NCBI GenBank assembly: GCA_019414645.1
Contig: DXLP01000007.1
Location: forward strand, 7,730 to 71,729
Direction: 5' to 3'
Length of the DNA: 64,000 nt
Source: Collinsella sp.
GTDB lineage: Bacteria; Actinomycetota; Coriobacteriia; Coriobacteriales; Coriobacteriaceae
Below the pieces are notes generated by a model. It was not told where the DNA came from and searched no databases. It worked only from the letters and a program-made list of their open reading frames with translations. Shown here one piece after another: positions 36,120-62,254 of this stretch (the stretch's first letter is position 1; the number at the start of each line of letters is the position of its first letter). Both the position numbers and the translations under genes were made by a program.

Positions 36120-36986
36120 TTACTGCTGCAACGACCTTAACAGTTTGATTTCAGCCGCATAACCTGCAAGTTCGTTCGGCGTCTCCAAGATGAATGGCAA
36201 TGCGCGCAAGCGGCCATTCGATACAATATTCTGTATAACCTGCATACCGCCGCCAAACTCTTCACTACCCAGGTAGCCCTTGCCGATGCACTCGTGGCGA
36301 TCCTTATGGGCGCCACAAGGGTTCTTCGAATCGTTGATGTGTACGGCATGCAGGCGATCGATGCCCACCACGCGGTCGAACTCGTCGAGTACGCCGTCCA
36401 GATCATGGATGATGTCGTAGCCGGCATCGCTCACATGGCAGGTGTCCAAACAAACGCCCAGCTTATCGGACAGCTCTGGACACTTGGCGGCAACCCCCTC
36501 GATAATGCACGCCAGCTCTTCAAAGCTACGGCCCACCTCGGTGCCCTTACCCGCCATGGTCTCGAGCAATACCGTCGTCTGCTGTCCCCCAAACATCACC
36601 TGGCACAGCGTGTCGACAATCATCTGAATGCCGGCGTCTGCCCCCTGTCCCACATGCGCGCCGGGATGGAAGTTGTAGTAGTTGCCGGGCAGTGCTTCCA
36701 GACGCTGCAAATCTTCCGCCATAGCCTCCAAGGCAAACTCGCGCGCCCGCTCCTTAGCGGAGCAGGGGTTATAGGTATACGGGGCATGCGCCACCAGCGG
36801 TCCAAAGTCGTTTTGCGCCATAAGCTCGCGCAGAGCCGCCACGTCATCCATGTCAAGGTCTTTTGCCTTGCCACCGCGCGGGTTGCGCGTAAAGAACGCA
36901 AAGGTATTGGCACCAATGGACAACGCCGTCTCCCCCATTGCCCGATAGCCCTTCGTCGTCGAAAGATGACACCCGATCGTCAGCAT
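36120..36986 (-). CDS. nfo: Endonuclease IV (AP endonuclease)
   Basis: The 288-residue TIM-barrel nuclease has all the Zn-binding blocks of Nfo: [41 protein letters not shown] and [20 protein letters not shown]. It cleaves DNA 5' of abasic sites in base excision repair. The length and motifs are canonical. A covarying 86-bp repeat element lies directly upstream (37004-37089). Confidence 0.95.
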
Positions 36987-37003: not shown

Positions 37004-37089
37004 CAGTTGCGGTGAAATACGGTCTATTGGTGCCTTATTTTGGCGCAAACAGACCGTATTCCACCGCAAGATATAAAAGGGGCATCAGG
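37004..37089. repeat. 86-bp inverted-repeat element, copy A
   Basis: Left arm TTGCGGTGAAATACGGTCT and right arm AGACCGTATTCCACCGCAA pair over 18 of 19 positions around a roughly 26-base loop. A conserved tail AAGATATAAAAGGG follows. The element is the same length, without gaps, as copy B at 38167-38252. It lies between the oxidoreductase and nfo. Confidence 0.75.
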
Positions 37090-37134
37090 GGCACGGTCCG
37101 CCGAGCCCCCCCCCTTGAGCAGCAGCACCGCAGC

Positions 37135-38154
37135 CTAGAGCGCCAAGCAAATCGCATCGATGATCTGCGCGCAGCGCTGTGTGGCGGCAAGGGGCATGAC
37201 GGGACTCTCGAGTTTCCCCGCCCGGATGAGCTGAGTCGCATGCGAAGCTTCGCCGTAAAAATCATCGACCTCAAATGGGGCGTCGATTTCGAGCACTCGA
37301 CCGTCGGAGTACTTCACATGGGCGAGCTCGGGGCGATGGAGGCGCTCGATTTCCAACGAACCCCGTTCGCAGGCAATCGTTAAGCGGCTTTCATATGCTG
37401 CTTTGCCGTCGCACACCATATGAATGGGTATACCGCCGACACTCATATGAATCTCATCGGCCCAATCCACGCGGCCGCCCGATACGTCACGCCAGCGAAC
37501 TTCACGAGACGAAGCATCGCACGCACCCGCAAGCAAATCCTCAAACCACCCGGCCGCATAGCAGCCCATGTCATATAGACAGCCGCCCTGCAACGGATCG
37601 AGCAGATAACTCGAAGGGAACTCACCATAATCGAGTTTTTGCACGCTTTCGATCGAGACGATACAGCCGAGCTCGCCCGACGCAAGCAAGTCCTCCACGC
37701 GAGTGCGCATCGGGCAAAACCGATTCTTCATCGCCTCCATAAACAGCACGCCGCACTCGCGAGAGGCGGAGGCAATCGAGAGAGCCTCTTCCTCACTCAA
37801 AACGGCCGGCTTTTCGCACAGCACGGCCTTTCCGGCGCGCAGCGCGCGACAGGCCCAACGCGTATGCATACCATGCGGAAGAGCCAAGTAGATTGCGTCG
37901 ACATCGGGGTCGGCAATCAGCGCATCATAAGCCGCATCGCCGCCATCGTCAGCCGTGACATAACTGTGCGCAGCATCGATCGAAAACGCTCGACAAAATT
38001 CCTCGACATGTGCAGGAGTGCGGCCGGCCGCAGCCACCAGCCGTGCCCCGTCGACCTTCTTGAGCGACGATGCAAATCGATGCGAAATGTGCCCAGCGCC
38101 CAAAACGCCCCAACGAACCTCACGCAAATCATCACATGAATCCCGATAGCCCAC
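37135..38154 (-). CDS. Gfo/Idh/MocA-family oxidoreductase
   Basis: The GTG at 38154 has AGGGGG upstream; the longer frame extends into a repeat element and is rejected. The 339-residue protein has a Rossmann start (RWGVLGAGHISHRFASSL), the CEKP motif in GKAVLCEKPAVLSEEEA and a C-terminal alpha/beta substrate domain. Such enzymes use NAD(P) to oxidise or reduce sugars, inositols or their derivatives. It lies between two copies of an 86-bp structured repeat. A second, unrelated member is encoded at 44424-45530. Confidence 0.87.
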   Translation of the reverse strand: MGYRDSCDDLREVRWGVLGAGHISHRFASSLKKVDGARLVAAAGRTPAHVEEFCRAFSIDAAHSYVTADDGGDAAYDALIADPDVDAIYLALPHGMHTRWACRALRAGKAVLCEKPAVLSEEEALSIASASRECGVLFMEAMKNRFCPMRTRVEDLLASGELGCIVSIESVQKLDYGEFPSSYLLDPLQGGCLYDMGCYAAGWFEDLLAGACDASSREVRWRDVSGGRVDWADEIHMSVGGIPIHMVCDGKAAYESRLTIACERGSLEIERLHRPELAHVKYSDGRVLEIDAPFEVDDFYGEASHATQLIRAGKLESPVMPLAATQRCAQIIDAICLAL

Positions 38155-38166
38155 GACAGCCCCCTT

Positions 38167-38252
38167 CAGTTGCGACGAAATAGTTCCTGCTATCGCCCTA
38201 TTCTGCCGCAAACAGGAACTATTCCATTACAAGATATAAAAGGGTCATGAGG
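38167..38252. repeat. 86-bp inverted-repeat element, copy B
   Basis: Same length and orientation as copy A. The distal stem has changed from ACGGTCT/AGACCGT to AGTTCCTG/CAGGAACT, keeping its base pairs; the basal stem is weaker. The tail AAGATATAAAAGGG is unchanged. Its last 8 bases overlap the 3' end of the aldo/keto reductase gene. Confidence 0.75.
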
Positions 38253-39453
38253 AGCGAGTTTTGCTGAAGACTTTAAGCGCGGCCGTTACGGGGCCAGGCT
38301 GGAAACGTCGGCGCGCGTCGTCGAGACGCTCGGGGATATCGATGTGTTGCGGGCAGTGACGCGCACATTTGCCGCACTTGACGCAATTGCTCACGAGCTT
38401 GGGCTCGCTCGTGCGCACCGCGCTCGCCGTAAAGTATTGCGACAGCCCCGTAAACCAGCTGTGCGCATAGCTCGCGTTGTAAGCGGCAAAGCAGCCGGGA
38501 CTGTTAATACCCTTGGGACATGGCATGCAGTAGCCGCATCCCGTGCAGGGCACGCGATTCGATTTTTCAAACTCCGCCAGCACGCATGCGATGGTATCGA
38601 GCTGAGCGGCTGTCATCGAATCCGGCAGGGCCCGATCGGCCAGCACCGCGTTCTCGTCCACCTGCGCGGTATCGGTCATGCCCGAAAGCAGCATCGTGAC
38701 TTGAGGATGGTTCCACACCCACGAAAGGCCCCAAGCAGCCGGCGTCTTCAGGTACGGATCGCGTACGTCATCGAGCACGGCGCGGGCCCGCGGAGGCAGC
38801 TTGCCCGCCAGGCGTCCGCCCAAAAGCGGTTCCATCACAAACACCGCGAGCCCGCGCTCGGCGGCTGCTATAAGTCCCGCCGTTCCCGCTTGGTAGCGCT
38901 CTCCAGCGTAGTTGTACTGAATCTGGCAAAAATCCCAGTCATACGCGTCGAGCATCGTGAGGAAGTCCGCCGCACTGCCGTGATACGAAAAACCTATCTG
39001 GCGAATACGCCCCGCAGCCTTTTGGTGCGCAATCCAGTCTTCGATGCCCAACGCCACCACGCGCTCCCACTGGGCGGGCGAAGTGATGTTGTGCATAAGG
39101 TAATAGTCGATATGGTCGGTCCGCAGGCGACGCAGTTGCTCGTCGAAGAACCGGTCGAAATCCTCAGCGCACTTGCACGAAGCGTGCGGCAACTTGGTCG
39201 CCAGCAACACCCGGTCGCGCAGCCCCAAGCGCTCAAGTGAGGCGCCCACGCACGCCTCGTTACCGGGATAGAGATACGCAGTATCCAGATAATTAATCCC
39301 CTGCTCCACCGCATGGGAAATGATGGCATCGGCTGTCTTCGCATCGGGGTGTCCCGGCGAACCGGGAAACCTCATGCAGCCCAGACCCAGAGCAGATATT
39401 CGGTTACCACTTTTGGGGTCAACGCGGTATTGCACGGCCCCTCCCTTCGCCAT
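38245..39453 (-). CDS. Aldo/keto reductase with C-terminal 4Fe-4S domain
   Basis: The 402-residue protein has an N-terminal aldo/keto reductase barrel (ISALGLGCMRFPG, then INYLDTAYLYPGNEACVG with the catalytic Asp/Tyr). After it comes a ferredoxin-like extension with clusters CTGCGYCMPCPKGINSPGC and CVKCGKCARHCPQHI. This fusion is common in anaerobes and predicts reduction coupled to a ferredoxin-type electron supply. The ATG at 39453 is the chosen start; its ribosome site is weak. The last codons lie within repeat copy B. Confidence 0.88.
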   Translation of the reverse strand: MAKGGAVQYRVDPKSGNRISALGLGCMRFPGSPGHPDAKTADAIISHAVEQGINYLDTAYLYPGNEACVGASLERLGLRDRVLLATKLPHASCKCAEDFDRFFDEQLRRLRTDHIDYYLMHNITSPAQWERVVALGIEDWIAHQKAAGRIRQIGFSYHGSAADFLTMLDAYDWDFCQIQYNYAGERYQAGTAGLIAAAERGLAVFVMEPLLGGRLAGKLPPRARAVLDDVRDPYLKTPAAWGLSWVWNHPQVTMLLSGMTDTAQVDENAVLADRALPDSMTAAQLDTIACVLAEFEKSNRVPCTGCGYCMPCPKGINSPGCFAAYNASYAHSWFTGLSQYFTASAVRTSEPKLVSNCVKCGKCARHCPQHIDIPERLDDARRRFQPGPVTAALKVFSKTRSS

Positions 39454-39598
39454 CAGCGCCCCGGCAAGGCGAAACACAATGGTCACGCGGCCGAAACATC
39501 GTGGAATCGCAATCGAGAACGTATCGTAACGCAGCAGAAATCGAGCTGTCACGGCACCGCTTTAACATCAGCAAAAAGCCCGATGAAAGGAGCCACCC

Positions 39599-62129: not shown

Positions 62130-62254
62130 GGGCAGGAATGAGGTTGCTTTCCAACGCGTCCTCGGGCATGCGGCATTATTTTGATCCGCGCTTCGCGCTA
62201 CAAAATAATGCCGCCCCCTGCGGAATGCGTTGGAAAGCAACCTCATTCCTGCCC
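62130..62254. repeat. 125-bp hairpin element
   Basis: Arms of 30 bp (62130-62159 and 62225-62254) match at 29 positions, starting GGGCAGGAATGAGG. Inside, CGGCATTATTTTG (62171-62183) pairs perfectly with 62201-62213, and GCGC-TTC-GCGC closes the tip. No open frame fits. It may be a miniature mobile element or a strongly folded RNA. Confidence 0.75.

Follow-up and report, generated by a model that had tools for sequence, protein, structure and literature searches.

ERIC, RUP, BOX and similar MITE-like palindromes are intergenic repeats with terminal symmetry, features that are also seen in the Collinsella elements described here. A further resemblance is to the GTAG-REPs mobilised by RAYTs (TnpA_REP), which are likewise dispersed extragenic palindromes with many copies, specific to a species group and found in genomes that encode a Y1 protein. 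The third comparable system comprises the TIRs of TIRYT genes and TnpA_REP subclass 2.1, which share with the Collinsella case HTH-bearing Y1 proteins, possibly self-complementary repeats, and a lack of typical REPs near the gene, as described in excerpts of PMC3733652 and PMC6006769. Subclass 2.1, made up of HTH-tailed Y1 proteins, is a large group for which REP-like repeats beside the gene were not found, according to the excerpt of PMC6006769.

The region investigated is a 64,000-nucleotide stretch of a Collinsella sp. contig (hereafter the window), in which a sequence-only reading had described two 86-bp elements of the same orientation that align without gaps. This was borne out, with 63 of the 86 positions identical when invariant columns were counted. 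Element 1 (37004–37089, + strand) consists of a palindromic 63-bp core (37007–37069, unstranded) with outer arms TTGCGGTGAAATA (37007–37019, unstranded) and TATTCCACCGCAA (37057–37069, unstranded), together with a conserved tail, and element 2 (38167–38252, + strand) contains a 63-bp core at 38170–38232 (unstranded). The distal stems read ACGGTCT/AGACCGT in element 1 (arm class I) and AGTTCCTG/CAGGAACT in element 2 (arm class II), exactly as first written down. The start codon of an AP_endonuc_2 (xylose isomerase-like TIM barrel) gene (36120–36986, − strand) lies 20 bp from the core of element 1, the stop codon of a Gfo/Idh/MocA oxidoreductase gene (37135–38154, − strand) lies 65 bp from the same core, and the core of element 2 starts 12 bp past the stop codon of an aldo/keto reductase gene with a 4Fe-4S domain (38245–39552, − strand). 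These coordinates agree with the earlier statement that the elements flank a single Gfo/Idh/MocA gene, and the overlap reported for the reductase gene amounts to its last 8 bases, covered by the 86-bp element 2.

Folding as single-stranded DNA gave z-scores against shuffles of −7.0 (+ strand) and −7.3 (− strand) for element 1 and weaker values of −2.2 and −3.6 for element 2, because the outer stem of the latter, TTGCGACG/CCATTACAA, has decayed in the window strain and good pairing persists in the distal stem only. The claim that pairing was kept between the two elements thus holds for the distal stem and fails for the outer stem, which is unpaired in element 2; loss of stem pairing, which the same reading had regarded as counting against it, is seen in that outer stem, and the stem is kept elsewhere. 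The centres of the two copies appear related by eye. Two AAGATATAAAAGGG sites occur in the window, where none of 100 shuffles contained two and no further site was found with up to two mismatches allowed. The impression that no named family fits was supported by a search of the whole window against Rfam at gathering score, in which all six matches were tRNAs. Elsewhere in the window, at 62130–62254, there is an inverted repeat of 61 nt with 80% complementarity and 3 nt separating its arms.

The core, TTGCGGTGRAATA - 37 bp - TATTYCACCGCAA, has 47 paired copies in G001, the nearest genome compared (45% of sampled 31-mers in common with the window), and given these copies the window pair is confirmed to be more than chance. 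A strict pattern matched 17 of 58 relatives, all from a single genus. More copies in related genomes, for which the sequence-only reading had proposed a search, were found with a looser pattern in 23 of 43 Collinsella genomes; copy numbers ranged from 10 to 44 in 22 of these, and G025 had a single copy. A covariance-model search of the genus likewise returned 23 of 43. Across the order, matches were obtained in 14 of 149 genomes, of which 13 are Collinsella and one belongs to another genus, its match being weak (E 5e-4). A scan of genome_contigs gave at least 120 stretches, with all of the 80 matches listed coming from Collinsella and many from C. aerofaciens. The core had no matches among viral contigs (IMG/VR), and phage spread of the family was rejected on this basis. 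No prior account of the 63-bp family was found among the matches listed in literature on Collinsella repeats, palindromes, REP and RAYT, a coverage that mostly leaves aside subscription journals. The two window elements are members of a hairpin family scattered behind genes in one gut Collinsella group.

In our judgement, the elements are probably, though by no means certainly, REP-like non-autonomous palindromic repeats of the Collinsella aerofaciens group that work as DNA and have a Y1 partner. The element would act at the DNA level, and a Y1 (HUH) REP-associated protein would have recognised the folded arms or the duplex palindrome and spread the element. Copies would survive where landing places them behind genes, some perhaps now providing the sole hairpin that separates convergent genes. 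Today most copies would pass down vertically, while exchange between copies would keep the arms matched and occasionally give an element a new interior without a change of site.

The anatomy of the core combines fixed and variable parts. Its length was exactly 63 bp for 201 of the 210 copies or, counted by locus, for 87 of 94. The outer arm comprises 13 bp conserved in sequence as well as in pairing, with positions 1–8 and 11–13 near invariant; as the loci were mostly retrieved by an exact-arm pattern, arm conservation across strains is overestimated. In a comparison of G001 with 400 kb of G059 in which sites were located by their flanks only, three pairs of 63-bp elements showed 1 difference in 78 outer-arm positions, 3 in 42 inner-arm positions and 11 in 69 centre positions, a fourth pair (the site-2 locus, degenerate in G001) being excluded from the count. 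The G001 orthologue of element 2 (C1 1491090–1491169) has a left arm with a 17-bp tandem duplication. Positions 14–17 of the inner arm take one of two forms, (S)GGAC or GTTCC, and with each element assigned to its nearest class these were matched left and right in every case, 29 and 30 of 59 distinct elements belonging to the two classes and none being mixed. To obtain the 59, a set of 199 copies with a length of 63 bp was thinned: a copy was discarded if its inner 37 bp differed at 9 or fewer positions from those of a copy already retained, a filter that also removes some chance look-alikes. The centre varies between loci and tends toward a small apical hairpin, with a mean folding energy (RNA parameters) over the 59 elements of −3.85 compared to −1.45 for shuffled centres (sd 0.17 at the level of the set); 11 of 46 G001 copies have another copy of like centre in that genome (at most 5 of 23 positions differing). 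Stem pairing was kept in 95.0% of cells (86.2% in shuffles) and the stem covariation score was 0.240 (0.109 in shuffles), a value as high being found in 0 of 500 shuffles. Pairs changed on both sides numbered 8, compared to 6.9 in shuffles, and 79 of 500 shuffles reached 8.

The compensatory stem change reported for the window pair therefore stands as regards pairing and covariation and is not supported as regards independent steps, given two always-matched arm classes and the related window centres. As judged from the sequences, the pair fits a reflection of the arm classes and of exchange between copies, with no stepwise selection implied, and the covariation, which is real, is more readily understood as the matching of two arm classes, maintained by exchange, by template switching or by selection. 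Comparison of strains gave examples of such change. Arm classes differed at 10 of 52 sites with both flanks matched across strains, and centres differed at 10 or more of 23 positions in 9 of 49 sites with at least two members of 63 bp; seven orthologous sites changed in both respects. These counts are not independent events, because loci from different strains overlap in orthology. In the first listed replacement case, the flanks match closely up to the arms and the interior is unrelated, and at site 1 in strain L044 class-II arms enclose a centre in which, judged by eye, letters of site 1 and site 2 are mixed. The L044 element, like the two identical copies in G015 described below, fits exchange between copies. 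A donor for the replaced centres was not found, the 25 listed of 211 like-centre locus pairs mostly looking like orthologues (with one shared flank, or missed by the grouping). Apparent replacement could possibly also arise from independent insertion at one exact site, or from a double element that lost one of its members.

The matched arm changes might also be products of mutation or recombination alone, through template switching or conversion between neighbours, in a fold that has no function. We regard this as possible, if on the unlikely side. It is favoured by the block-wise change of positions 14–17 without mixed elements, by loci L079 and L133, where at the same site both inner arms differ and the centre is common (the left flank differing over its last ~25 bases), and by two identical neighbouring copies in G015, 1188 bp apart, which are sites 1 and 2 by centre and spacing. 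Such a mechanism, in which template switching creates multi-base compensatory changes, is described in an excerpt of PMC8794818. However, the constant length and invariant outer arms are left unexplained by it, and centre inversion, expected from template switching, was a weak sign, being seen at 1 of 50 loci.

Larger rearrangements were also observed around the elements. Breaks in synteny with G001 affected 46 of 124 element sites, compared to 39 of 187 intergenic sites used as controls (p 0.002). A 1.25-kb one-gene segment between two elements (L096:1414–2787 and L144:1916–3289) is inverted relative to G001, with 81–82% identity inside and 91–96% outside; it is within the outer arms that the match ends. 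At L134:6083–7005, a short gene is enclosed by a pair of elements whose centres are related, with only one element at the corresponding place in G001, possibly a gain or loss of a gene-plus-element unit. L088:3871–4028 contains two elements 32 bp apart, one of each arm class.

The position of the copies relative to genes is one ground for a second alternative, a functional RNA hairpin at transcript 3′ ends, acting as a bidirectional terminator or mRNA stabiliser, with pairing kept by selection on RNA; we consider this unlikely. Every G001 copy lies 3′ of a gene, with 18 in convergent, 29 in tandem and 0 of 47 in divergent contexts, against a background of 222 divergent among 976 intergenic regions of at least 90 bp (P about 5e-6 by number of regions; gene calls from a simple codon-score caller), and in the distinct-element set 1 of 56 was divergent. 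None of the 47 lies within a called gene, a single 14-bp overlap with a gene end being observed, and in tandem contexts (39 elements) the median distance was 43 bp to the upstream stop codon compared to 119 bp to the next start. Copies are also clustered, with 7 gaps below 2.5 kb where 1.9 were expected (P 0.0008), so that bracketing of one or a few genes recurs. Among convergent pairs 83–203 bp apart, 11 of 13 with an element were without another terminator recognised by a crude detector, compared to 26 of 71 without an element (p 0.002); per gene side, a terminator was present at 6 of 35 with and 143 of 364 without an element. In a control of element-free convergent pairs 20–140 bp apart, 48 of 93 were without a detected terminator (p 0.035 against the 11 of 13). 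This scarcity of other terminators at convergent sites, as seen with a crude detector, suggests a gene-end function, and together with the strong stem covariation it speaks for the RNA hairpin. On the other hand, canonical terminators in tandem contexts occurred at similar frequency beside the element (13 of 29) and where it is absent (260 of 690), and a U-tract (T4 or more within 14 nt) was found beside the hairpin on just 12 of 94 element sides, on which ground an intrinsic terminator was rejected. The outer arms are moreover conserved in sequence beyond what pairing asks for, and non-Watson-Crick changes in the 39 tandem-context elements comprised 24 G-U and 36 A-C on the transcribed strand; as G-U is not preferred, the pattern is not RNA-specific and DNA is favoured over RNA.

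The sequence-only reading had proposed that a RAYT be looked for, and PF01797 matches were found in 37 of 43 Collinsella genomes. Of the three RAYT-like genes in G001 (A, B and C), RAYT-A scored 34.9 bits against PF01797 (over the cut-off of 23) and 37 bits (E 2.9e-9) against NF047646 REP_Tyr_transpos (under the cut-off of 80). In G001 it adjoins genes that resemble iron-sulphur assembly genes. With orthologues defined by at least 75% identity, RAYT-A is present in 21 of 43 Collinsella genomes, namely in 21 of 22 with at least 10 element copies and 0 of 20 with none; the exceptions to co-occurrence are G007 (17 copies) and G025 (one copy), both without RAYT-A. It is the sole Y1_Tnp family match in G003, G005, G020 and G029, to which a second search adds short fragments in the first three. 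The link between element and RAYT-A is a correlation within one clade; both mark that clade, so that their co-occurrence may be due to kinship alone. An element lies ~2.3 kb upstream of RAYT-A in G003 and G010, with a remnant at a like place in G001; from copy number, we estimate that chance alone would place an element at 2.3 kb in roughly 1 of every 10 genomes. At the 11 of 21 RAYT-A loci listed, upstream DNA is common to all and downstream DNA to 8, element copies directly flanking the gene were not found, and half-site-like matches numbered none in 3 and one, with 3 mismatches and ~1.45 kb off, in 8. The share of intact arms was 17 of ~26 in G007, which lacks RAYT-A, and 10 of ~18 in G005, which has an intact one (totals being covariance-model counts halved for two strands); with no clear difference, a tie of arm intactness to RAYT-A was rejected.

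Among the 21 aligned orthologues, both the HUH histidines and the tyrosine are retained in 4, HUH is retained with serine in place of the tyrosine in 6, and 11 have lost both; the proteins of G059 and G019 are intact, and that of G001 is catalytically dead. Catalytic residues are thus lost in 17 of 21, and these forms can hardly be moving copies in their genomes now. The order of the losses was inferred from family-wide conservation, because the protein tree is poorly rooted. The median dN/dS was ~0.32 for the 11 forms without HUH and tyrosine (0.18 in the Y1 domain and 0.41 beyond it) and 0.10 for the 4 intact forms, values from pairs that share pre-loss history and in which recombination is possible; the higher value points to weaker constraint in the dead forms. 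HTH-bearing RAYT-A, whose protein class has a Y---NP motif (PMC6006769, excerpt), is nominated, with decidedly limited confidence and for the partner step alone, as the likeliest among known protein types.

The other two RAYT-like genes gave separate observations. With RAYT-C as query, a sequence search of the PDB yielded no relative. RAYT-B has a GTAG-footed palindrome, GTAGCTAAAAAAGCCCCGTCCCAAATTAGCTAC (L262:1234–1266, G001 C1 2061234–2061266), ~40 bp upstream, with 5 copies in G001, and the two look like a classic REP/RAYT pair. This family is separate from the 63-bp family, since 0 of its 5 G001 copies lie within 150 bp of a 63-bp element. A further palindrome, GGTGCAAAGGGG(T/A)CAG...CTTTGCACC, by eye adjoins some elements (G001 C1 ~268060 and ~2219530; L067 ~5210) and carries a GGGG(A/T)CAG motif resembling the TIRs of TIRYT genes.

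In a third alternative, which the low dN/dS of dead RAYT-A speaks for, a chromosome-organising or regulatory protein, possibly the catalytically dead RAYT-A itself, would bind the palindrome in duplex form, the fixed 63-bp length serving to space two half-sites. The near invariance of outer arms and length around a variable centre fits such a site, as does the confinement of exact half-sites in G001 to the 47 elements (outside them, four were found at up to one mismatch and none exact). A duplex site has no need of a folding centre and covarying inner arms, though, and the protein is a candidate only, so that we hold this reading to be improbable, about on a par with the RNA hairpin. More speculative still are exchangeable hairpin cassettes, in which the 13-bp outer arms would be fixed docking or exchange sites, allowing the matched inner arms and centre, or even a complete gene flanked by two elements, to be swapped at a fixed place in the chromosome, and RAYT-A would be passing from a single-strand transposase to a non-catalytic hairpin binder kept by the host for a gene-end or chromosome function.

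Presence of the element differs between strains at some sites, without clean junctions, and at two G001 element sites both flanks are present in G059 and the element is absent. An autonomous transposon sharing the element ends was rejected for G001, which has no exact half-site beyond the 47 elements. The palindromic ends, and a tidy filled/empty difference of roughly 80–85 bp in L066 compared to G001 and L151, would suit a MITE that belongs to a conventional DDE transposase and has the arms for its terminal inverted repeats. This reading is very improbable, as exact half-sites in G001, the sole genome scanned whole, occur only inside paired elements and leave no longer transposon with exact ends there, and as filled/empty strain comparisons gave no clean case of a target duplication or an exact empty site.

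For the preferred reading of REP-like repeats with a Y1 partner, a clade-wide palindrome family that tracks one HTH-tailed Y1 protein offers a testable candidate target for this class of proteins. The series of RAYT-A orthologues that have lost catalytic residues and are yet conserved constitutes a natural experiment in the passage from transposase to host protein. Hairpin interiors that are replaced site by site with pairing kept, finally, are a caution against taking covariation as proof of RNA function.

Compared to the known systems, the Collinsella elements differ from GTAG-REPs in core length (63 bp, REPs measuring 20–40 bp in the excerpt of PMC3733652), in a TAAG rather than GTAG foot (positions −3 to 0: T 0.67, A 0.64, A 0.97, G 0.88), in having two matched arm classes, and in that RAYT-A lacks directly flanking copies. 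The TIRs of TIRYT genes often have GGGGWSAS, which by eye is missing from the Collinsella core consensus, and RAYT-A has no TIR of the 63-bp element sequence. Catalytic residues, lost in most RAYT-A orthologues, are reported in PMC3733652 to be conserved in all the proteins aligned there. From ERIC, RUP and BOX the elements are set apart by description only, no autonomous partner transposon or target duplication having been found for them. What is new relative to known REP-like repeats is the combination of strictly conserved ends with site-variable middles that are replaceable at the same site.
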